Positions 6,753 to 19,356 of a DNA stretch of 27,633 nucleotides are shown in pieces. Below the pieces are notes generated by a model that saw only the letters and a list, made by a program, of their open reading frames with translations, was not told the origin of the DNA and ran no database searches. Where the stretch lies: positions 1 to 27,633 of the IMG/VR virus record IMGVR_UViG_3300021420_000105; one strand, written 5' to 3'. This stretch comes from a virus. Both the position numbers and the translations under genes were made by a program. Position 1 is the stretch's first letter. Each line of letters begins with the position of its first letter.

Positions 6753-9055
6753 CCGATAACCCTTCGCGCATTAGCCGACTTGGGCTCAATGTCCCAATCG
6801 ATCGAATCGATCACCATCTGCCCCGAGCCCGAGAAGTCGATGTGGCACACCTGCCCGTTGAGCCATAGCTTGAACCTCAACTCAAACTGCTTCGACTTCA
6901 CGTCCTGCGGAACGATATCCGCCACCATCGACTGCTGGCGAGCCCCATCTAAGACCGGAGTTGCAACCACCGTGGCGGCCTGGCCGGGCGTGCCGTAGCC
7001 GCGGAGAACCATCTCCCGATAGAAGATCCTCTGGCTGGACCCCTCTCCGAACACGTCGGGAGAGCGGAACCCCCAGTTGATCACCGTGCTTCCGACAGTA
7101 GGATTGGCCGGGTTGATGCTCCACGCTCCATCGCCGCTCTGAAGACGATGAATACTCGGCCCCAGCGCTGAGGATACGGGCACCCCGGCAATCACCATTG
7201 GGTTGCCTTCCCCGCCCTTGACGCGATTAAGAGACGTGATCGGCCACGGAAGGTCGATGATGATCCACGACTTCAGGATCAGGTCGTAGCAGAACACCCG
7301 GGTCAAGACGCCGGCACCTCCCACCAGGGGCATGGCGCACATGTACATCGGAGGCTGAACCGCCTGGGCACTCTTCGAGAGATACAGGTAGGCAGGGTCA
7401 ACCTTCACGATGTCAGAGTCGATCTCGATCCCCCCAAACAGGTAGGGGCGAATCTCCTCTGAGATCACCCGGTCATTCACGCCGTCGTAAACAGCGAACC
7501 CGAGATGCGAATAGCGCACGATTCCGAATCCCGGAATGAACTGGATCGACCTCGCGGCCAGGCATCCCATGTCGGTCTGAGCGGCCTGAATCTCGAAGTT
7601 ATTCGATCCGAAGACGCCGATGATCTGGTAGGTCTGGAACTCCTTGAAGACGGCCATGCTGCCGGTCGGAGAGATTCCGAGGGCCGCGATCGTGAACGGC
7701 TGCATCCCGGTAATCTGCGATCCGTCATCCCGGCCGATGAAGGCGATGTTGACCGGGTTCCATGAGTTTGGGTTGTTGGCGTCCGACATCTTGAGCACGG
7801 TAGGCCCGTCAAGCTGGTCTGCACTCGTCTGGGGAGCGGTGTTTGCCAACCAGAGGCTGCCGGCGTAGACCACGGCATGGGCGGCACCTCGGGGTGCCGG
7901 AAGGGCCGCAATGACCACCGTGGCCTTCCACATGACCGAGCCGTCCGCCACCAGTTGGCCGATGGTGTAGGAACCTGCCGTGAAAGGCGTAGAACCCGAA
8001 CCCGATACGCCTCCCTGGATGGCAGTGAACACGTACCCCATAGCCTGCAACTGGGCGCCTGTGATCCAACTCACGCTTGCCTGCCATGTCGGATAGGCCG
8101 CAGTGAAGGAGTTGACGATCGAGACCGGCGCCACCGTGCCGAGCTTCGATGGGTCGTAGGTCAGGGGCGTGATGCCGTTGCCCAGGATCAGGACTTCAAG
8201 AGCCGCGAACTGCAACTCGATGGGGATCGAACAGACCGCTCCTACGATTCCTCCGTAGGGAGAGAATCCGGGAGCGGAACTTACCGGGTTAAACTGGGGG
8301 TCGCCGGGAAGAAGGTTGACCTGCTGCGGAGCTACTCCAGGAAACAGCCCTCCGGTGACGGACACGGGAAATAGGTCGGTTATCGACTGATTGGCAACTT
8401 GATAGAAGTCCAATAATTGGACGTACCGGGTCGTATTTGCGATCGGGGCCGCCGCAGTCGGAGCGGTAAGCGTCCCAGTAAATGTGAAGGTCGTGGTTCC
8501 AGATCCCACCACGGTCCCGAGCAGTACCCCCAACGGATTCGACCCGCCCGTTGGAAGAACATTCAGGTAGTAAACCTGATACCCGTACACTCCCGCCACC
8601 GCTGTCCAGTTGAAGACCACCGAGGCGAAGGACGATGCCGCGGTCATCTGCACCGCTGAACCCGGCACAGTCAGACCGGTGTGATCCAGACCTCCCGCCG
8701 AACCGATAGCCACCACGCCGAAGAAGTACGTTCCTGCGGGGTTCGTGGTAGTCCCAGATGGAACAGCCGTAAAACCGGTAGGAGCGGAGAACAGTGCGGC
8801 GGCCCTCTGCGCCAGCATGGAGTAGTAGGGATACTGACCCACGGCATAGTTCGAATAGGCATCGATCCAGAGCGAATTGGGGTAGGTGGAGGTCCAGTTT
8901 GCAAAATACTCTGAACCGTCACACACTTGGAGAGATCCCCGTTGCGTGAGCAGGAGATTCGACATGCGCGTCAGGCATCCCGGCTGCTGGGAGAGGATGC
9001 CGGTAGCGGCATTGATTCCGCGGGCAAACTTTTTCTGCGAAATCGTTTTAGCCAT
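6749..9055 (-). CDS. Tail tube / DNA stabilisation protein (T7 gp12 / P22 gp10-like role)
   Basis: 768 residues; ATG with GAGGG upstream, starting inside the 3' end of the HNH gene. The N-terminus has the motif typical of tubular tail proteins: a basic start, then GILSQQPGCLTRMSNLLLTQ followed by RGSLQVCDGSEYF, comparable to the Gly-Gly-Ile-Ser-Gln-Gln-Pro start of T7 gp12. About residues 90-170 form a fibronectin-III-like insertion (FNWTAVAGVYGYQVYYL). The C-terminal half has repeated beta blades, including SMAVFKEFQTYQIIG and FGIVRYSHLGFAVYDG, as in P22 gp10-like propellers. It forms the tail tube below the adaptor and retains packaged DNA. Position downstream of capsid and adaptor agrees. 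Good confidence on role, less on the precise family. Confidence 0.75.
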   Translation of the reverse strand: MAKTISQKKFARGINAATGILSQQPGCLTRMSNLLLTQRGSLQVCDGSEYFANWTSTYPNSLWIDAYSNYAVGQYPYYSMLAQRAAALFSAPTGFTAVPSGTTTNPAGTYFFGVVAIGSAGGLDHTGLTVPGSAVQMTAASSFASVVFNWTAVAGVYGYQVYYLNVLPTGGSNPLGVLLGTVVGSGTTTFTFTGTLTAPTAAAPIANTTRYVQLLDFYQVANQSITDLFPVSVTGGLFPGVAPQQVNLLPGDPQFNPVSSAPGFSPYGGIVGAVCSIPIELQFAALEVLILGNGITPLTYDPSKLGTVAPVSIVNSFTAAYPTWQASVSWITGAQLQAMGYVFTAIQGGVSGSGSTPFTAGSYTIGQLVADGSVMWKATVVIAALPAPRGAAHAVVYAGSLWLANTAPQTSADQLDGPTVLKMSDANNPNSWNPVNIAFIGRDDGSQITGMQPFTIAALGISPTGSMAVFKEFQTYQIIGVFGSNNFEIQAAQTDMGCLAARSIQFIPGFGIVRYSHLGFAVYDGVNDRVISEEIRPYLFGGIEIDSDIVKVDPAYLYLSKSAQAVQPPMYMCAMPLVGGAGVLTRVFCYDLILKSWIIIDLPWPITSLNRVKGGEGNPMVIAGVPVSSALGPSIHRLQSGDGAWSINPANPTVGSTVINWGFRSPDVFGEGSSQRIFYREMVLRGYGTPGQAATVVATPVLDGARQQSMVADIVPQDVKSKQFELRFKLWLNGQVCHIDFSGSGQMVIDSIDWDIEPKSANARRVIG

Positions 9056-9608
9056 GCTTGCCCTCTATGTGAGCGAAGACTCCGTGCAACTCCCGCGCCT
9101 TTGCTATATAGGCATCGCGAGCATCTTCCTCTTCCACGAAGTAACCGATCAGTATCCTCTTTTTTTGAAACTGAATTACTGATGCCCATCTCCATTGAGA
9201 GCGCCACTTCTTTCGATAAACTCCCTTGTATTTTGAAGACGTTTGAGAGGAGAATTTACGCCTATTTTGCATCTGCTGTGGCCTACTGCATACTCGAAGG
9301 TTTCCTCTAGTGTTGTCCAGAGTGTCGTGGTTTTCATGGTCCACTTGACGAGGATCTCCGAACGCCAAGCCTTCAATGACACGGGCCATAGCTTCCTGAC
9401 GAACCCCGGGCTTCTCTTTTCCTCCACCCAGGTAGATAGACCTTACCGCATAGAATGACCGACTCGTTTTACTCCAATGAGCGAACCACTTGAATGCGGA
9501 TATGCGCTCGTAATCGCACGCATCAACCTTTGCGAACTGTCCTTGGGTTAGAGGAATCAGACGGGTATCATCAGACGAGAGGGCAGGTTCCTGCTCGAAC
9601 AGGTTCAT
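9048..9608 (-). CDS. HNH homing endonuclease with C-terminal AP2 DNA-binding domain
   Basis: 186 residues if started at the ATG with a near-perfect AGGAGGT seven bases upstream; the longer frame to 9665 has no such site. An N-terminal segment (RLIPLTQGQFAKVDACDYER) precedes the HNH_3-type core around DHENHDTLDNTRGNLRVCS and a Gln-Asn pair. A C-terminal AP2-like domain follows (SKYKGVYRKKWRSQWRWAS to GYFVEEEDARDAYIAKA). This is the standard architecture of free-standing phage homing endonucleases that nick DNA and spread to sister genomes. It is wedged between adaptor and tail tube genes and overlaps the tail tube start by eight bases. Its AT-richer sequence and own promoter-like element fit a mobile gene. 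Confidence 0.9.
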   Translation of the reverse strand: MNLFEQEPALSSDDTRLIPLTQGQFAKVDACDYERISAFKWFAHWSKTSRSFYAVRSIYLGGGKEKPGVRQEAMARVIEGLAFGDPRQVDHENHDTLDNTRGNLRVCSRPQQMQNRRKFSSQTSSKYKGVYRKKWRSQWRWASVIQFQKKRILIGYFVEEEDARDAYIAKARELHGVFAHIEGKHG

Positions 9609-9642
9609 GGGCGCACCTCCTAAGTGCGTACAGCCTGCTCTC

Positions 9643-9670
9643 ATTATACTTCGTCTGCATGTCACAATAA
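9643..9670 (-). promoter_or_regulatory. Candidate promoter for the HNH gene
   Basis: A perfect TATAAT lies at 9643-9648 on the minus strand, about 35 bases before the HNH ATG. The best -35 is weak (TTATTG at 9665-9670, 16-base spacer). The 104-base gap between adaptor and HNH genes is clearly AT-rich compared with its surroundings and also holds an inverted repeat at 9688-9703 (GTTTG, six bases, CAAAC) without a T run. A private promoter is plausible for a homing gene; the -35 makes this tentative. Confidence 0.35.
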
Positions 9671-12545: not shown

Positions 12546-13418
12546 CTAGTTGACTAGCCCGAATGATGCCGTTGAGAGTGCCGATTGCAAAATAGAGTCG
12601 TCGTTTGACGCCTCGGCCAGGGCCTGGTCGAAGGTCTTGGCGACTTCGCGAACCTTGCCGTCCTTGGTCGTAATCTTCTGGAAAGGGTCGAAGTCAGTCT
12701 TCTGACGATGCGCTTCGGGGCCGGAGACTCGCGGACGGGTGGCCGTAGCGATACGAGCCTTCTCTTCGCCGGTCTTGGCTGCCTGGGCTTCAAGTTCCGC
12801 CAGTTGCGCCTTCTTGACGTCGTTCCAGGTCAGGCGATCGACCGCGGCCGCCATGTCGAGACGCCCATACTTGTCCTTCAGGCCCTGCTTCGTGGCGTAC
12901 TCAAAAGCCTGCTGGTAGTCCACCTTGACGCCCTTGGGAAGCTCGCTCGTGGCACGAGAGAAATCACGGTTGTAAGTCTCTTCGAGATTGGCTCCGACAG
13001 CAGTCTGAACGACATTCGAGATCTGCTTCAACTGAAGTCCAATATTGGACTGGAAATCCTGAAACTCCTTGTGCTGCTTCGACATCTCCGCCTTGAACTC
13101 CTTCACGATCGGTCCGAGCAAAGGATCGTTGGGATCGAGGCCGAACTCGCTGGCCGCCACGGTGCGAATCTCAGCGTCAGTCCTGGGAGGTGCAACCTGT
13201 CCGTTGGGACCGAGAAGCCCAGCCTTCTGAAACTCGGCCACCTTGTTCGCAATGGCGATCTCAGCCTGTTCGACAAGCTGCTGGCGCTGCGTCAGTTGCT
13301 GGCGGTCTTCAGCCGACATCGACCGGATTTCCCCGAGAGTGGCATTGGTGCCGTCGGGCATAAGCAACTGGATGTCGTCGCCGTACTTTGAACTGTTGAT
13401 GATGTCTTTGAGTGCCAT
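12546..13418 (-). CDS. Capsid scaffolding protein
   Basis: 290 residues, highly charged and helix-forming with few aromatic residues. The N-terminal half has Gln/Glu-rich segments (AEDRQQLTQRQQLVEQAEIA) and a central coiled coil (FKAEMSKQHKEFQDFQSNIG). The C-terminal third is rich in Lys, Arg and acidic residues (AQLAELEAQAAKTGEEKARI). The gene stands immediately before the capsid gene, the place of the scaffold in T7- and P22-like phages, where it guides procapsid assembly and is then released or cleaved. It carries one copy of a 16-base palindrome at 13036-13051. The call rests on composition and place. Confidence 0.7.
   Translation of the reverse strand: MALKDIINSSKYGDDIQLLMPDGTNATLGEIRSMSAEDRQQLTQRQQLVEQAEIAIANKVAEFQKAGLLGPNGQVAPPRTDAEIRTVAASEFGLDPNDPLLGPIVKEFKAEMSKQHKEFQDFQSNIGLQLKQISNVVQTAVGANLEETYNRDFSRATSELPKGVKVDYQQAFEYATKQGLKDKYGRLDMAAAVDRLTWNDVKKAQLAELEAQAAKTGEEKARIATATRPRVSGPEAHRQKTDFDPFQKITTKDGKVREVAKTFDQALAEASNDDSILQSALSTASFGLVN
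13036..13051. repeat. 16-bp perfect palindrome AGTCCAATATTGGACT, copy inside the scaffold gene
   Basis: Exact match to the palindrome at 26139-26154. Here it is read as codons for Ser-Asn-Ile-Gly in the scaffold, so coding constraint may explain it. A close relative with one extra central base (GTCCAATAATTGGAC) lies at 8408-8422 inside the tail tube gene. Confidence 0.5.
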
Positions 13419-13421
13419 ATT

Positions 13422-13904
13422 CTAAGCCCCTCCTCCAGAGGCGAAATCCTGTAACCCCATCCCCTGACCCTGGGGGTTCGGTATCGATGCGTTGTTGGCA
13501 ATCGGGTTCGCCTGCACGGTAGACGCCGTGGCGGCCGCCTGCTCCGCTTCCTTGATTGCGTTGTCGAGGTACTTCTGCGCCTGAGCGATGTTCCGGCTCA
13601 CCCCTGGCATCTGGAATGCCGCACGCACGTAGATAGGAACGATGATCGACTTGATCTGCTGAAGCGTCTTGAGGATGGCTCCCGGATCGGCTCCCTGTAG
13701 TTCCGCCAGTTGCCGCGCCACCTGATCGCCGGCCTGAGCGCCTGGTTGGGCATTCATCTGGGCGGGAGCCCCCGGACCCATTGGAGACGGACCCTGCGGA
13801 GGTGCGGGGGGCATACCCGGAGGTCCACCCTGTTGAGGGGCACCGCCAGCCAGTTTTGCAACTAGTTGACGCGCCATCATCGCCGGTAGTCCGGGACTCG
13901 CCAT
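13422..13904 (-). CDS. Unknown small morphogenesis protein
   Basis: 160 residues; GGAGAT lies upstream of the ATG. Residues 1-18 are helical, 20-60 are Pro/Gly/Gln-rich and disordered (GGAPQQGGPPGMPPAPPQGP), and 62-130 form a helical Ala/Gln core (QLAELQGADPGAILKTLQQI, KYLDNAIKEAEQAAATAS). The tail is Asn/Gly-rich. It ends three bases before the scaffold ATG and is surely co-expressed with it. I do not recognise a family. A head-assembly accessory or a second scaffold-like component is possible from its place between portal and scaffold. Confidence 0.6.
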   Translation of the reverse strand: MASPGLPAMMARQLVAKLAGGAPQQGGPPGMPPAPPQGPSPMGPGAPAQMNAQPGAQAGDQVARQLAELQGADPGAILKTLQQIKSIIVPIYVRAAFQMPGVSRNIAQAQKYLDNAIKEAEQAAATASTVQANPIANNASIPNPQGQGMGLQDFASGGGA

Positions 13905-13911
13905 CGATCTC

Positions 13912-14004
13912 CTACCAGCGCCTGGTGCGACGGGGAGCCTTGGGCATCGAGACGCGCTTGACTCCGGTTCGATGCAGGAACGGTTTCTTGGTCGCTACGG
14001 GCAT
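13912..14004 (-). CDS. Tiny basic protein (30 aa)
   Basis: ATG with GTAGGAGACACCC directly upstream, stop seven bases before the next gene. The sequence begins MPVATKKPFLHRTGVKR and ends KAPRRTRRW, giving a strongly positive charge with only one Trp, one Phe and no acidic residue. It is one of a row of four short basic ORFs between the HTH gene and the scaffold. A nucleic-acid or acidic-protein ligand is likely; the function is unknown. Confidence 0.6.
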   Translation of the reverse strand: MPVATKKPFLHRTGVKRVSMPKAPRRTRRW

Positions 14005-14013
14005 GGGTGTCTC

Positions 14014-14175
14014 CTACGCCTTCTTGCTGTTTCCGGGGATCAGCTTCAGTGGGTCCATCGGCTTGGCCACGGGGTTGTTGCGAACGTCGGCGCCGGGCTC
14101 GTTTACCGGTCGACCAACCGTCAAAGGACTCTTCAAGATTTCCGAATCAAACGTATTGCCGAATTTCTCTGGCAC
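14014..14175 (-). CDS. Small unknown protein (53 aa)
   Basis: GTG start preceded by AAGGAGG at six bases. The protein starts MPEKFGNTFDSEILKSPLTV and ends KLIPGNSKKA. It is polar with several Pro residues, probably unstructured or a short peptide ligand. Unlike the neighbouring tiny ORFs it is not strongly basic. It ends nine bases before the next ATG, and its stop TAG is part of that gene's GTAGGAGA ribosome binding region. Function not recognised. Confidence 0.6.
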   Translation of the reverse strand: MPEKFGNTFDSEILKSPLTVGRPVNEPGADVRNNPVAKPMDPLKLIPGNSKKA

Positions 14176-14241
14176 GAAACGCCTCCTTGGGCGGATGTAG
14201 GGGCGAGATGCGAGCAGCCCGCCCCGGTTGAATCTGCCGGA

Positions 14242-14283
14242 TTACTTCCGGCGACGAGAACGACGGCCACGACGGTGTGCCAT
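14242..14283 (-). CDS. Protamine-like micro-ORF (13 aa, Arg-rich)
   Basis: MAHRRGRRSRRRK: eight of 13 residues are Arg or Lys and none is acidic. The ATG has GAAGGAGGT upstream, among the strongest ribosome binding sites in the window, which argues for real translation of so short a frame. It lies in the row of small basic ORFs between portal and scaffold. It may neutralise DNA or RNA or bind an acidic scaffold surface; this is inference. Confidence 0.55.
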   Translation of the reverse strand: MAHRRGRRSRRRK

Positions 14284-14356
14284 ACAGTTCTACCTCCTTC
14301 GCTGTAAGTCTCGGAACGGGCGCGAAGGCCAGCCGCACATTCCGGTTGCCCAGAAC

Positions 14357-14461
14357 CTACGAACGCGATGACTTGCGCTTTTTGATCCTGGCTCGCATGG
14401 CGCGCAGGAATTCTTTTGGCCGATGGTAGTCCTTGACTAGTTTTTCCTTGGCCACTGCCAT
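14357..14461 (-). CDS. Small basic protein (34 aa)
   Basis: ATG with GGAGGCAGGA upstream. The N-terminal part MAVAKEKLVKDYHRPKEFLR should be an amphipathic helix and the tail (AMRARIKKRKSSRS) is very basic. It belongs to the same run of tiny basic genes. No family is recognised; a nucleic-acid-binding or assembly peptide is plausible. Confidence 0.6.
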   Translation of the reverse strand: MAVAKEKLVKDYHRPKEFLRAMRARIKKRKSSRS

Positions 14462-14483
14462 TTCCTGCCTCCATTTCATTGAA

Positions 14484-14534
14484 TTACTTCCGCTTGTGGG
14501 ATTTCTTGCCACCCTTGTGATGACGACGGGCCAT
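14484..14534 (-). CDS. His/Lys/Arg-rich micro-ORF (16 aa)
   Basis: MARRHHKGGKKSHKRK: 11 of 16 residues are Lys, Arg or His. AAAGGAGA stands at proper spacing before the ATG. It resembles the 13-residue Arg-rich ORF 200 bases downstream, including the start Met-Ala followed by basic residues and the end in Arg-Lys. The two could be diverged duplicates. The 90 bases upstream (14535-14625) hold no convincing gene. Confidence 0.55.
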   Translation of the reverse strand: MARRHHKGGKKSHKRK

Positions 14535-14625
14535 GGAGTCTCCTTTCAGCAGACGCTAATCCGCTTCATTGAGACAACGCTAGTACAAGTTGGAAGGGAG
14601 GGAAAGTTTTTGCTGCCGCACTACT

Positions 14626-14820
14626 CTATTGATCTATAAGGCTGGACGGGGTTAAGACAAAATGGCGGTTGTGAAACCGACCCGTGGAAATGCACCATAC
14701 CGGCAACCCGAACTCGACTAGAGTGCCGTTCTGAGCCCACTGACGAACCGTGCGTTCCGGCCGCCCCATGACCCGGGCGAACTCCGTTAAAGTAAGCCAA
14801 TACGATAATTCTGGATTCAT
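14626..14820 (-). CDS. Small helix-turn-helix DNA-binding protein (excisionase/MerR-like)
   Basis: 64 residues; the ATG overlaps the portal stop as ATGA. The segment WLTLTEFARVMGRPERTVRQ then WAQNGTL has the winged HTH pattern of excisionase-type (HTH_17) proteins: a first helix with Leu-Thr-x-x-Glu-x-Ala, a turn with Gly-Arg, and a recognition helix with Thr-Val-Arg-Gln-Trp followed by Gly-Thr-Leu. The C-terminal strand pair could be the wing. It is too short for more than one domain. The location, translationally coupled to the portal in a late operon, is odd for a repressor or Xis and suggests late-gene control or a packaging-site binder. Family call fair, role unknown. Confidence 0.65.
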   Translation of the reverse strand: MNPELSYWLTLTEFARVMGRPERTVRQWAQNGTLVEFGLPVWCISTGRFHNRHFVLTPSSLIDQ

Positions 14821-16535
14821 TTACGATTTCCTCGCGTCTTCGCCAGAGCAGCCAGCTCTAGATTTGACTTCTGCTCTTCGGCGATCTCTTCGGCCCCTGG
14901 ATAACCCAGAGTGCGCAGACCGCGCTCCGTAGCCACGATGCCGGTCTTCATCAGTTCCGGCGTCATGCGGCGAATCACCGAATCCGAAAGCGGACGGATC
15001 GACGCTTCATCGAGGAGCACGTCGTACTGGTCGGGGCGGATCAAGCCCTGCCACTCGGCCATCTCTATTCCATTGACGCCGCGGAGGGGCAAGTTCTGCC
15101 GACCCATGTACCTTCCCATGACGCCGAACATGAACTCTCCCAGCATCTGAAGGGTGTTCGACAGGAGCCTGCCTGAGAGTTGCAGGAGGCCGGATGATTG
15201 CAATACGGACGAGTCGAAGAGGTCGGTCGAGATGTTGCCCTGGCCCGGATTGCCTTGCCTGGCCTCCCCGAATCCGAGGACTTGATTCTGGAGCTTCAGA
15301 AGCTGCTCGGGAACCTGCATGGCGCTCGCCGACAGGGCGTTAGGCGAGACGCACTCGGGCGTCTTCGACCCGGCGTTCTTGACCACGACTTCACCCGGCA
15401 GGCCGCCGAATGCTTCGGGATCGATGCCTGAGTTGTTGTCGAGGAACCAGACGCCGTTGTTGAGCCTGATGCAGTTCTCAAACGCCTGAGTGTAGAGTCT
15501 TTGCGCCAGTTGCTGCATGTCGATCGTCATCGACGTGACTGGCACGCCCCAGGCCGAGTTGAGCGCCGGCAGAGCCCACACCGGGAAGATGGGGAAATGC
15601 GGCGCCATGATGTCGCTGCGCTTGGGATAGGGGTTGTCACCGTCCGACAGGATGATCCCATTGCACTCGACCAGCCAGCGTCCGTTGGGGTAGCGGAGGA
15701 TCACTTCGGGATCGATGAGTTCGTCTTCGAGGGGCTTGTCCTTCGACTCGACCACCTCCCGCGTGTAGTCCTTGCAGAAGACGTGGTGGACGAGGACTCG
15801 GGTGTCGGACGAGTAATTCTTCCTGCCTGACTGGAAGGGCATGCCGGGGGTCGACTGCATCGGACCGGTGGGCATCTGGATGCCGTACCCCGAGTCGCCT
15901 GAGAGTGGAGCGGGAGACTGGGATCCGCGATTAGGACGTACTCCCTTCGAAGTGTCCGGCCACTTAAGCCGAACGTCCTCGATGTTCATCCACGTCCCGT
16001 AGTAGACGTAGGCGGGGTCCCAGGTGTAGTCGGTCGAAGGGTCGAACCCCACCATTCTAGGGTCCATCGACTTACACCAGATTCCGCCCTTGCCGTTCCT
16101 GAGATCTGGATCGAAACCTGAGACTATAAACCCCGTTCCGCAGTACCGGGCGGTGAGGGAGGCGTAGAGGGTGTGCTGGTTGATCTTAGCTGCCACCCAC
16201 TGCGCCTGGAGCGCCTTCTCTCGATCCTTGTCGCGGTCCTTGTCTCCGAACACGTAAATCTGGGGAGACATGTCGGAGATCTGGCTCGCCTCCTCCAGCA
16301 TGATCCTCTGGAGCATGGGGATGCGTATCAGAGGGCGGAATGATGGGGAGGGGGAACCTGCATCCTTGAGGCTGTAGAGATCGTCAGCAGATTTATAGAA
16401 GTTCTCGCCCAGTACCTTATTCCTATATTCGTCGGAGGCCCTTATCCATTCCGAAATGTGCTTGGCGCGTGGGTCGTTATACTCGTCCGGGTCCGACTTC
16501 TTACGAACATTCCCGATGGTGTATACGTTGGCCAA
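14817..16535 (-). CDS. Portal protein
   Basis: 572 residues. The only suitable start is a TTG directly after the previous TAG, with AAGAGG upstream; the first internal ATG is about 75 codons in. The protein has the P22/phi29-class portal style: an N-terminal helical region with RASDEYRNKVLGENFY, a wing domain with VVESKDKPLEDELIDPEVIL, the conserved stretch PALNSAWGVPVTSMTIDMQQ followed by long helices with TQAFENCIRLNNGVWFLDNN, and a C-terminal helical crown. It forms the dodecameric ring for DNA passage and terminase docking. Place downstream of terminase and upstream of scaffold and capsid is classical. Confidence 0.8.
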   Translation of the reverse strand: MANVYTIGNVRKKSDPDEYNDPRAKHISEWIRASDEYRNKVLGENFYKSADDLYSLKDAGSPSPSFRPLIRIPMLQRIMLEEASQISDMSPQIYVFGDKDRDKDREKALQAQWVAAKINQHTLYASLTARYCGTGFIVSGFDPDLRNGKGGIWCKSMDPRMVGFDPSTDYTWDPAYVYYGTWMNIEDVRLKWPDTSKGVRPNRGSQSPAPLSGDSGYGIQMPTGPMQSTPGMPFQSGRKNYSSDTRVLVHHVFCKDYTREVVESKDKPLEDELIDPEVILRYPNGRWLVECNGIILSDGDNPYPKRSDIMAPHFPIFPVWALPALNSAWGVPVTSMTIDMQQLAQRLYTQAFENCIRLNNGVWFLDNNSGIDPEAFGGLPGEVVVKNAGSKTPECVSPNALSASAMQVPEQLLKLQNQVLGFGEARQGNPGQGNISTDLFDSSVLQSSGLLQLSGRLLSNTLQMLGEFMFGVMGRYMGRQNLPLRGVNGIEMAEWQGLIRPDQYDVLLDEASIRPLSDSVIRRMTPELMKTGIVATERGLRTLGYPGAEEIAEEQKSNLELAALAKTRGNRK

Positions 16536-16679
16536 CTATCGCCTCTTTTTACTGTGACGGACCTTGTGACGTTTACCACCCACCACGACATCTTTCGCGT
16601 GGGTTGGAATTCCATGTATGTGAGTATACGCACGAGACTTGCGGTAGGCTTCCTTGGACTTGAAGTGCTCGGTAGGCAT
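16536..16679 (-). CDS. Small basic protein (47 aa)
   Basis: ATG overlaps the upstream stop as TGATG and has GGAAGG before it. The sequence starts MPTEHFKSKEAYRKSRAYTH and ends GGKRHKVRHSKKRR, with strong positive charge in the C-terminal half and several His. It ends immediately before the portal TTG start, so portal translation is probably coupled to it. It is similar in style to the tiny basic ORFs downstream of the portal. Function unknown. Confidence 0.6.
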   Translation of the reverse strand: MPTEHFKSKEAYRKSRAYTHIHGIPTHAKDVVVGGKRHKVRHSKKRR

Positions 16680-16855
16680 CAGTACCTTCCGTGACCGCTT
16701 CCCCGCGTGCTCTGCCTGGCAGTATGGACCTTGCCCTTGCCGGACCTGCCCGGAGCCCGTGCACCCTTCTTCTTGAAGTGGCGGCGAGGATTCTTGGGGG
16801 TCACCGTTTCCGAGTCGTCGCCGGGGTCCGTAATGCCGAACTTCGCCCTGTCCAT
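16679..16855 (-). CDS. Small protein with acidic head and basic tail (58 aa)
   Basis: The ATG at 16855 has AGAGGTG five bases upstream and is preferred over an in-frame GTG six bases earlier. The first 20 residues are partly acidic (MDRAKFGITDPGDDSETVTP); the rest is Lys/Arg/Gly-rich (NPRRHFKKKGARAPGRSGKG). A 13-base inverted repeat (CTCTGA, one base, TCAGAG at 16864-16876) overlaps the ribosome binding site and could mask it. It overlaps the next ORF by one base. A disordered nucleic-acid-binding protein is likely. Confidence 0.6.
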   Translation of the reverse strand: MDRAKFGITDPGDDSETVTPKNPRRHFKKKGARAPGRSGKGKVHTARQSTRGSGHGRY

Positions 16856-16885: not shown

Positions 16886-17224
16886 CTACTTTTCCGCCTC
16901 CCGTGTCAATGCCGCACTACTCACCTCGGTGGGGTCGATTCTCAGCCATTCTGCCAGAAGTTGAGCCTGCGACTTGCCCGTTTCTCCCGTCTCATTGCGC
17001 ATGAACTGTTCGAGGTCCGTGATCGTCGCAGTAACCTCCTTGAGGCTGATGACGTCACCGAGGACCAGCGTGTCGAGGTTGTCCATCAGGTCGCGCTGGT
17101 AGGCTTCGTAGGCGGATGCTTTGTTGTGCTTTCGGTTATCGTTGAACCGTTGTCCGATGTCGGAGAAGAGGGCTTTGGCGCGCCTCGCTGCTTCGTCTGA
17201 GACTCCCCGGCGAACTGACCGGTC
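16886..17224 (-). CDS. Downstream (-1) frame of the probable frameshifted protein
   Basis: 112 codons beginning just after the CAA-AAG slip site. The sequence RRGVSDEAARRAKALFSDIG, then AYEAYQRDLMDNLDTLVLGD, and DLEQFMRNETGETGKSQAQL reads as a good helical protein with normal codon use. There is no ATG, GTG or TTG with a ribosome binding site near its beginning; the first Met is 40 residues in. It therefore either continues the upstream frame by -1 frameshifting or marks an indel in the sequence. It lies between terminase and portal genes; the product could be a packaging accessory, which is inference. Confidence 0.5.
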   Translation of the reverse strand, partial: DRSVRRGVSDEAARRAKALFSDIGQRFNDNRKHNKASAYEAYQRDLMDNLDTLVLGDVISLKEVTATITDLEQFMRNETGETGKSQAQLLAEWLRIDPTEVSSAALTREAEK

Positions 17225-17538
17225 TTTTGGGCCATCGTCCGTGGGCTGTCCTTGAGCGGGATTCCGGGAGGCTTCTCCTGCACCTTGAACGGGAGCACTC
17301 CTGCCTGAAGTTTTTCCCGCGCCTCGAATTCGTTGCGCCGGAGCCTCTTGGCCAGATCTCTCTCCATCTCCATCTGCGCCGCTCTCTGGTCGGTCACAAT
17401 GGTCCTCAACAGGGTCGGGGGTGAGCATGTGCTCGCGGGCGGAATGATCCCTAACGCCCGCTGAGCCTCCATGATCTCCAGCATCTCCTCGGCGTCGAAG
17501 TCTATTTGCAAACTGTTGGCCGTCCATCGAATCTTCAT
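17086..17538 (-). CDS. Upstream frame of a probable frameshifted protein (N-terminal part)
   Basis: The conceptual product is 150 residues. It starts three bases after the terminase stop, with GGGGA upstream of the ATG. Residues 1-115 look like a normal protein: acidic/helical start (MKIRWTANSLQIDFDAEEML), a charged helix (QMEMERDLAKRLRRNEFEAR) and GIPLKDSPRTMAQK. After about residue 115 the frame becomes Ser/Thr/Pro-rich and unlike a folded domain, while the -1 frame becomes protein-like. A CAA-AAG site at codons 104-105 (17229-17224) allows a -1 slip. The true product may be about 217 residues spanning 16886-17538. No family recognised. Confidence 0.5.
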   Translation of the reverse strand: MKIRWTANSLQIDFDAEEMLEIMEAQRALGIIPPASTCSPPTLLRTIVTDQRAAQMEMERDLAKRLRRNEFEAREKLQAGVLPFKVQEKPPGIPLKDSPRTMAQKTGQFAGESQTKQRGAPKPSSPTSDNGSTITESTTKHPPTKPTSAT

Positions 17539-17541
17539 TCA

Positions 17542-19356
17542 TCAGATCCCCGCTAATCTCTGTGGTTGGTTGTGATTCTTCTCGTACTTGCGTATCTGGC
17601 GAAGGTGGTCGTTGCCGTTCTGCATGATCCCGCCCATCGCCGTGACCAGACCGTCCTTGGTCCATTCCGGCATCTTGCCGGGGTTCTCCTGAGGCAACTG
17701 GACCGTCTCCATGTCCTCCTTAGTGAGGAGGAGGTTGCGCATAGGAGACACTTTGCAGACGTCGGGGTGGTACTGCTCTTTGGCGATCCAGGCCAGAAAC
17801 GCCGCCATCATCGTGTCATCGTGGCCAACTCTGACCGACCAGCGGAAGTTCATCTCCATCTTGGCACACTTCATCTGATCGACCAGGATGCGGTCCTTGG
17901 GGAGGACTTCCTTGCGGTGGAGCGCGGTCCTGAACAGGGTGAACATCATTCTGCGGTACCGGTCGGAAGTCTCAAACCCGTAGGCCATTCCCGCCTTCGA
18001 TCGATCGGCCCTGTCGTCTCGCCCCTTCCAGAGGTACTGGGTGGGATAGAAGAGCCGGTCGCGGAGTTCCCGCATCACCACGTAGCCGAGGTTGTTCAAC
18101 TCCACGTTCAGCATGGCGTTGTTGAAGTAGTAGCCTAAGGCTGCCGCAATGGACGCGAGTTCTTCTGGAGATACGCGAGCCATAAATCTCGCTGCCGCGG
18201 CCCCAGACTCCGCATTCCAAACGAAGATTGCGGCGTAGTCGCCGGCCGCGAGAGATGCCTCCTCACCTCTTGCCGAATCCACTCCGGCAAAGTAGTGATG
18301 CCGGGGCTGAGGGTTCTCCCACACGCACAACGGACCTTCCCAATCGCCTTCAAGTTCTCCATGCTTCCCATCTTCCGTCAAAACGCATCTTCCGATAAAT
18401 GGGGGCTTCTCTACCGACGCCTCCGCGAACTGCATCTCCTCGACCGTGAAGGCCGGATTTCCGGTAGCTACAAACGCTTCCGTCGGGTCACTTGGGAACT
18501 CTTCCCTCCATTTTTCGATCACGCCTTCGCATTTGGCGGAGAGGGTTTCGCGGAACCAGGCTATACGATCCTTGCCGATCTTGACCTTCTTTCCTGTCTT
18601 CCAGTGCTTGATGTCGTTCATCAGCCAGCGTTCGTACTCGTCCCTCGGGGCATCTTTTGCTCTCGCTGGGTCCATCACGTAGGCTGGGTCGTCGTACCAG
18701 GGCAGGAAGATGGGCAGGAACTCGTTGTCGCCGGCCACGGCTGCCTGCCAGTACTCGTAGTAGGATTCGCCCGGACCCTCCATGCCGTTCGCCGTCGTCT
18801 CGATCCAGCACCCGTTGTTGGGATCTTTCGAAAGCGTGTTGAGCAGAGACGTGAAGGCGCCGTCGTAGGGATAGAAAGCCGCTTCGGTCAGGTGCAGCCA
18901 GGAGAACGTGAGGCCGCGGGCGCCGTGAACCGTAGCCGCGGTGTAATGCTTGAAGGTCGAAGCCCTGCCCACGTCGTGGGGGTAGGTCAGCGTCTTCGTG
19001 GTAGGGCGGAGCAGGTTCGACCCGTAGACCGGGCGCATGTCCTCATAGAACCCGCAGGCCATGGCGAAGTTCGCGACCGCCACTTCCCGGTTCTGGGCCA
19101 CCGTTCCCGCCTGAGCTGATGGGTAAGCAAGGCAGTGGGCGTGGCCTACGGCCGTAGCGAGCGTCGACAATCCGATGCGGCGGGCCTTGAGGAAGATTCC
19201 GTAGAGGCGGCGCTTCTTGGCGAGGTGTTCCTTGAAGAGTTCGATCACCTCGATCTGTTGCTGCCTCAGCTTGAATGGGACGAGGATGCCGTTGTCCCGG
19301 TCACGAATGTTCAACCGTTCGCATAATCGCGTGACGTGATCGAGGTTCAGACTCAT
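17542..19356 (-). CDS. terL: Terminase large subunit (ATPase-nuclease)
   Basis: 604 residues; ATG overlaps the upstream stop as TGATG. ATPase features: Walker A-type loop KARRIGLST at residues 57-65, hydrophobic strand plus acid for Walker B (FSWLHLTE, Glu158) and coupling motif ETTAN (186-190). The RNase H-like nuclease has FAGVDSARGE with Asp360, LNVELNN with Glu419, and VGHDDTMMAAFLA with Asp513/514. All three acidic metal ligands are present, so the enzyme should be active. It cuts concatemers and pumps DNA through the portal. It sits before the portal rather than after the tail fibre as in T7. No standard small subunit is recognised, though the 81-residue neighbour is a candidate. Confidence 0.93.
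   Translation of the reverse strand: MSLNLDHVTRLCERLNIRDRDNGILVPFKLRQQQIEVIELFKEHLAKKRRLYGIFLKARRIGLSTLATAVGHAHCLAYPSAQAGTVAQNREVAVANFAMACGFYEDMRPVYGSNLLRPTTKTLTYPHDVGRASTFKHYTAATVHGARGLTFSWLHLTEAAFYPYDGAFTSLLNTLSKDPNNGCWIETTANGMEGPGESYYEYWQAAVAGDNEFLPIFLPWYDDPAYVMDPARAKDAPRDEYERWLMNDIKHWKTGKKVKIGKDRIAWFRETLSAKCEGVIEKWREEFPSDPTEAFVATGNPAFTVEEMQFAEASVEKPPFIGRCVLTEDGKHGELEGDWEGPLCVWENPQPRHHYFAGVDSARGEEASLAAGDYAAIFVWNAESGAAAARFMARVSPEELASIAAALGYYFNNAMLNVELNNLGYVVMRELRDRLFYPTQYLWKGRDDRADRSKAGMAYGFETSDRYRRMMFTLFRTALHRKEVLPKDRILVDQMKCAKMEMNFRWSVRVGHDDTMMAAFLAWIAKEQYHPDVCKVSPMRNLLLTKEDMETVQLPQENPGKMPEWTKDGLVTAMGGIMQNGNDHLRQIRKYEKNHNQPQRLAGI

Follow-up and report, generated by a model that had tools for sequence, protein, structure and literature searches.

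The head-gene region of an uncultured podovirus-like phage holds a cassette of five very small genes (A to E), which recurs with its gene order conserved in about 50 metagenomic phage contigs, with the Shine-Dalgarno sequences (SDs) and the charge of the products conserved, and in which the third gene, C, follows a covarying mRNA hairpin that is predicted to hide the SD of C. The whole stretch of DNA that was analysed (the window, 27,633 bases of a virus record) carries the terminase, portal, capsid and tail genes on its minus strand. Its capsid protein passes the NCBIfam model NF033394 (capsid_maj_Podo) with 118.4 bits against a cut-off of 80; an AlphaFold model of this protein had a mean pLDDT of 39.8 and was set aside. 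The cassette sits between the portal gene and the scaffold/capsid genes, with an HTH gene on one side and g160 and the scaffold-like and capsid genes on the other:

14626-14820, minus strand: HTH protein, HTH_17/excisionase-like; conserved upstream neighbour, in most relatives
14484-14534, minus strand: ORF A, 16 aa (MARRHHKGGKKSHKRK), polybasic, SD AAGGAG
14357-14461, minus strand: ORF B, 34 aa (MAVAKEKLVKDYHRPKEFLRAMRARIKKRKSSRS), SD GGAGG, conserved core KD[FY]xxPxxFLRxMRA
14242-14283, minus strand: ORF C, 13 aa (MAHRRGRRSRRRK), arginine-rich, SD AAGGAGGT
14200-14225, minus strand: GC-rich hairpin GGGGCGGG...CTCGCCCC between C and D, a predicted fold
14014-14175, minus strand: ORF D, 53 aa, GTG start, SD AAGGAGG, near neutral
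13912-14004, minus strand: ORF E, 30 aa (MPVATKKPFLHRTGVKRVSMPKAPRRTRRW), SD AGGAG
13422-13904, minus strand: g160, then the scaffold-like gene (12546-13418)

The HTH gene matches PHROG 575 (E 1e-4) and, under the Pfam cut-off, HTH_17 (E 2e-4), and profile searches with g160 and the scaffold-like gene gave no match to any described scaffold family. The TAG that ends E also belongs to the SD of the gene after it, and the GC-rich hairpin between C and D is also found, with sequence changes, in the relatives L001, L002, L004 and L006. A sigma-70 promoter was sought in 13850-14900, and none was found. An overlapping frame of 113 aa (14133-14474) was rejected as a real gene; it looks spurious, since in relatives it is broken by stops and its sequence is scrambled.

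The initial annotation had pointed out five frames of 30, 53, 13, 34 and 16 residues with strong SDs, and all of them are present on the minus strand as listed. Its description of four of the five as strongly basic also holds, with a net charge of +8 to +10 for A, B, C and E and of about +2 for D, which is conserved and near neutral and is another kind of protein than the other four. We then called an ORF polybasic if its SD had five or more bases and its net charge was 0.30 per residue or higher; over the whole window, both strands included, such ORFs are exactly A, B, C and E. Among 2,000 dinucleotide shuffles of the region, 1,938 had no such ORF and 62 had one, and there were never more.

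The conservation of the cassette was examined in relatives. A search with the portal protein gave six related contigs (77-83% identical), and in all five of those that cover the cassette region, A to E are present in order with their SDs. The initial annotation had made the case for the small genes depend on close relatives; a loss of frame, charge or SD was looked for there, and all three are kept. With the capsid protein, 68 loci were found, and the cassette recurs in nearly all of them; it lies directly before the g160, scaffold and capsid genes in all relatives. The order is A-B-C-D-E in clade 1, which is window-like. In clade 2 (portal about 57%) it is A-B-C-F-D, with F standing for a further basic peptide (...MTKKVDRRVGKRK). 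In a third set (L045-L064), D is preceded by one or two tiny polybasic ORFs and followed by a basic peptide of greater length. When the capsid alignment was used as the query, more distant phages were recovered (capsid 55-62% identical), and in most of them the position of the cassette is still occupied by one to three tiny polybasic ORFs (e.g., MARRGRKHRRGGKRK). D-like ORFs occur in several phages whose capsid proteins share 55-65% identity.

We examined whether the peptides are under selection by computing pN/pS on nearest pairs, with Fisher p values that are small for all of A to E. The ratio was 0.37 for A (about 40 loci, with peptides of 11-26 aa at the orthologue position, in a set that contains a few mis-sorted F-type peptides), 0.37 for B (38 loci, p 2e-32), 0.37 for C (about 50 loci with C-type peptides, p 1e-5), 0.21 for D (51 loci, p 8e-150), which is the most strongly selected, and 0.28 for E (five close relatives). 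By this comparison of sequences, A to E are under purifying selection at the protein level (pN/pS 0.21-0.37). Peptide lengths differ by whole codons, and the charge is kept despite the drift in sequence. C is 16-20 aa long in most relatives (MAxRGGRRSxRRRRTAARK), and the conserved stretch of D reads LKSPLTVGRxxNEPGPDVxNNPVAxPxDPLxxIP. Apart from the start, A lacks V, L, I, F, W, Y and M, which make up about 5% of C; in both peptides there are almost no conserved non-basic residues besides G, S, A and H, and the last residue of most A and C peptides is K or R. The C-terminal end of E is RRT[KR]RW in clade-1 relatives and in L008, and RRY stands at the end of some C peptides.

When the region was aligned, the noncoding sequence before C proved to contain an invariant stretch, with the following segments:

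14338-14344, minus strand: 5′ arm of stem P1 (CGGAATG), a covarying stem with 18 unique versions
14322-14328, minus strand: loop segment CCTTCGC in the near-invariant loop GCTGGCCTTCGCGCC, complementary to the SD of C
14312-14318, minus strand: 3′ arm of P1 (CGTTCCG), which pairs with 14338-14344
14296-14302, minus strand: P2 partner GCGAAGG, which pairs with the loop and holds the 5′ part of the SD of C

The AAGGAGG of this SD lies at 14293-14299, and from its complementarity to the loop, together with the covariation of the stem, we infer either an SD-hiding pseudoknot, in which both helices would coexist, or a two-state switch, in which they would alternate; both are predicted structures. 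This putative SD-hiding RNA element, which is absent from the initial annotation, is the main new element of the region. The hairpin of the window folds as drawn, with an energy that is ordinary for its composition (z -0.15). In the cassette region, no Rfam family reached its gathering score, and there was no plausible match in E-value mode.

The sequence of P1 differs widely between phages and its pairing is always kept: in 16 distinct stems, 112 of 112 cells are paired, whereas 10,000 shuffles averaged 60 and never exceeded 84. In the 18 unique versions, the count is 252 of 252 cells in an alignment that leans to structure because it was built around the anchor, with the stems chosen by complementarity; each of the seven pairs of the stem has double-sided changes, and covariation scores 0.671, compared to 0.175 after shuffling. 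As a control for this anchor bias, the same kind of search was applied to shuffled upstream sequence and to other genes. A hairpin plus anti-SD score of at least 12 was reached by 93% of 40 C starts, compared to 8% of their shuffles, and by 11% of the A starts and 0% of the B, D, E, g160, scaffold and capsid starts. All seven pairs of the loop-SD helix are also kept in the 18 versions; most of them never vary, and the low variation of the helix is explained by the SD that it contains. A double-sided change from C-G to U-A (CTTTCGC with GCGAAAG) is found in the sister phages L039 and L044, which counts as one event, and L056 has a single G-U pair.

The loop is kept across phages with portals only 41% identical. 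Among 2.9 million viral contigs, the standard loop and SD pattern occurs in 15 stretches, and those examined precede a C gene; two of these stretches are in L084 and L087, outside the contigs that the capsid search gave. The matched variant (CTTTCGC/GCGAAAG) was found only in L039 and L044, and both mismatched combinations of loop and SD gave zero matches among the same viral contigs. In nine phages of the third set, there is instead a tiny gene with the SD GAGAGGAGG or similar, and most of these carry a covarying hairpin whose CTCTC-type loop is complementary to that SD. An anti-SD element was also sought upstream of the tiny genes in the most distant phages and was not found there. In a capsid tree, the element is confined to one supported clade (99/91) and the tiny peptides also occur outside it; hence, the peptides appear to be older than the RNA element, and RNA control appears dispensable for peptide function in general.

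Further RNA features were seen in relatives. Downstream of C, clade 2 has a second conserved structured RNA (UUCGGCGG...GGUGGGGGACUA...CCGCCGAAAGCGUUCGAUGCGCAAGACAGG) with a covarying P2 stem, which occurs at L010:5400-5520, at L025:3341-3455 and at 23 other clade-2 loci and has no Rfam match; the window does not have it and carries the GC-rich hairpin in its place. In clade-2 C genes (e.g., L025:3281-3340), the 3′ half is nearly invariant (CGTCGGCGCACCGCCGCTCGCAAG), and since this includes the synonymous sites, it suggests an overlapping RNA constraint. An Rfam match above the gathering score, to abiF RNA, was found in the relative L011 (14247-14293, minus strand).

The composition of the peptides, their position among the head genes and their strong SDs point to abundant polycations that would be made together with the virion proteins. 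Our preferred reading, to which we give a little under an even chance, is that A, B, C and E are nucleic-acid-binding polycations of head assembly, likely packaged or co-packaged, with D as a partner and C controlled by RNA. The very small genes, which are real and found family-wide, would then be expressed late, as part of the head-assembly operon of this uncultured podovirus-like lineage. A, B, C and E would be polycations that lack a folded core and bind nucleic acid while the head proteins are synthesized, and most likely they would be co-packaged with the genome or help to package it, like the microvirus J/VP8 peptides. D would be a conserved partner, probably facing the capsid or the scaffold. 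The loop of the mRNA hairpin would pair with the SD of C and hide it, placing C under translational control; in the simplest model, the RNA element sets the dose and timing of the arginine-rich C, which possibly binds its own operator (autoregulation). Altogether, we infer late expression, nucleic-acid binding, packaging and a repression or autoregulation via RNA. Three roles had been proposed earlier for these peptides, and that of a DNA-condensing or packaged micro-protein seems to fit best, with a scaffold ligand as a further candidate.

Among the nearest known systems is the J/VP8 peptide, which is rich in arginine and lysine, is important for DNA packaging and has been seen inside capsids (PMC11281519). 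Like the peptides described here, microvirus J and gokushovirus VP8 are very small, Lys/Arg-rich and poor in hydrophobic residues and are encoded among capsid genes. Their aromatic C-terminal residue is buried in the capsid (PMC11281519). However, each of them is the product of one gene in an ssDNA microvirus, whereas here several predicted peptides are encoded by a phage with a terminase, a portal and a podovirus-type capsid. A PHROG/Pfam scan of B, D, E and F gave no match at a meaningful E-value and no sequence or profile similarity that would relate them to J/VP8. Protamine-like proteins of eukaryotic dsDNA viruses are small polycations proposed to condense viral DNA (PMC6163548), but those belong to other viruses, and the peptides here are 13-34 aa long and have no sequence relation to them. 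For the RNA element, the T4 gene 32 mRNA offers a comparison, as a phage mRNA pseudoknot upstream of the gene for a nucleic-acid-binding protein (a binding that is putative here). The T4 pseudoknot lies about 67 nt upstream, where it nucleates the binding of gp32 and acts as an autogenous translational operator (PMC3014915), whereas here the loop would pair directly with the SD, and autoregulation is only a candidate.

We weighed other explanations against this reading. The arginine-rich peptides, C above all, could be RNA-binding regulators of late mRNA, with the hairpin or pseudoknot as the operator of C, so that control would matter more than packaging. The composition of C resembles that of arginine-rich RNA-binding peptides, the element is found at the C start alone, its loop is kept more strictly than the peptide, and clade 2 has further structured RNA after C. 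Still, we consider this explanation unlikely, if worth keeping in view: similar polybasic peptides exist outside the clade without the element, A, B and E lack it within the cassette, and three or four polybasic peptides would be superfluous for one regulator. We also see only a limited chance that the peptides are assembly ligands that bridge capsid, scaffold or portal in the procapsid, with their charge binding acidic protein surfaces. With their residue content, A and C seem better suited to bind nucleic acid than one specific protein surface, and g160 and the scaffold-like gene resemble no described scaffold family, even though such ligands would agree with a site directly before the g160, scaffold and capsid genes in all relatives, with the conserved hydrophobic and proline motifs of B and D, and with D being near neutral and under the strongest selection.

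It is quite improbable that the small ORFs are leaders or couplers, for which the act of translation or the shape of the mRNA would count and not the peptide. Stops that overlap SDs, as where E ends within the SD of the gene that follows, and the conserved RNA structures around C are what such a role would predict, but leader-only translation is unlikely because of the pN/pS values, which are clearly below 1 for A to E, and the charge is kept while the sequence drifts and lengths change by whole codons. Finally, each ORF is very short, as chance frames would be, but the 2,000 shuffles, the ordered conservation with SDs and the selection measured by pN/pS rule out such an origin for all practical purposes.

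Small basic viral peptides and SD-hiding mRNA structures are both known kinds, and it is their combination here that is unusual. Genes of 11-20 codons are usually skipped by gene finders; the cassette suggests that such genes can persist throughout a lineage as stable components of a head operon, under selection and with their own regulation. To our knowledge, tailed dsDNA phages normally package their DNA with a motor and do not need a protamine, which speaks against the preferred reading; if the peptides are packaged, as in the preferred reading, the view that motor-packaged dsDNA phages need no protamine-like peptides would be questioned. The stronger claim, that a tailed dsDNA phage lineage uses protamine-like micro-proteins (11-40 aa), either co-packaged or bound to nucleic acid, together with an arginine-rich peptide of 11-20 aa that represses itself via a loop-SD pseudoknot, is doubtful in our estimate. 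If self-repression by C is true, C would be among the smallest autoregulated nucleic-acid-binding genes, with a second kind of phage pseudoknot operator. The SD-hiding element would also be a precise handle for separating the packaging, assembly and regulator roles.

We also looked for cultured relatives and for a host. In the search for cultured relatives, the portal protein and D had no match and the terminase only a remote one, and the capsid protein matched only Myxococcus phage Mx9 (OQ709411, 26% identity) and an uncultured phage (23%). Mx9 has the same order of portal, small genes, scaffold-like gene and capsid, but no tiny polybasic cassette is present in its portal-to-capsid ORF listing. 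Two genome scans with the capsid protein, aimed at a host via prophages, found nothing.

The two short basic proteins that the initial annotation had placed before the portal (16536-16855) are real:

16679-16855, minus strand: sb1, short basic protein of 58 aa, before the portal
16536-16679, minus strand: sb2, short basic protein of 47 aa, whose start overlaps the sb1 stop

Neither of them matches a known protein family at useful E-values. There are weak to moderate matches to sb1 (34-57% identity) in about 15 relatives, and sb2 was found only in L011 (76%) and L014 (55%).

Other ORFs were noticed in the window and its relatives. An ORF of 205 aa between the tail genes (9048-9665, minus strand) looks by eye like an HNH/AP2-type homing endonuclease. 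Just before D, three relatives (L009:3989-4534, L010:5654-6199 and L066:5999-6430) have an inserted ORF with the motif DWARLAAYIDGEGC, which by eye resembles LAGLIDADG homing endonucleases. Two long ORFs in different frames overlap at 16886-17665 and 17086-17538 (minus strand), and because both are matched in relatives (37-55% for g17 and 35-47% for g17b), this suggests an overlapping gene pair.
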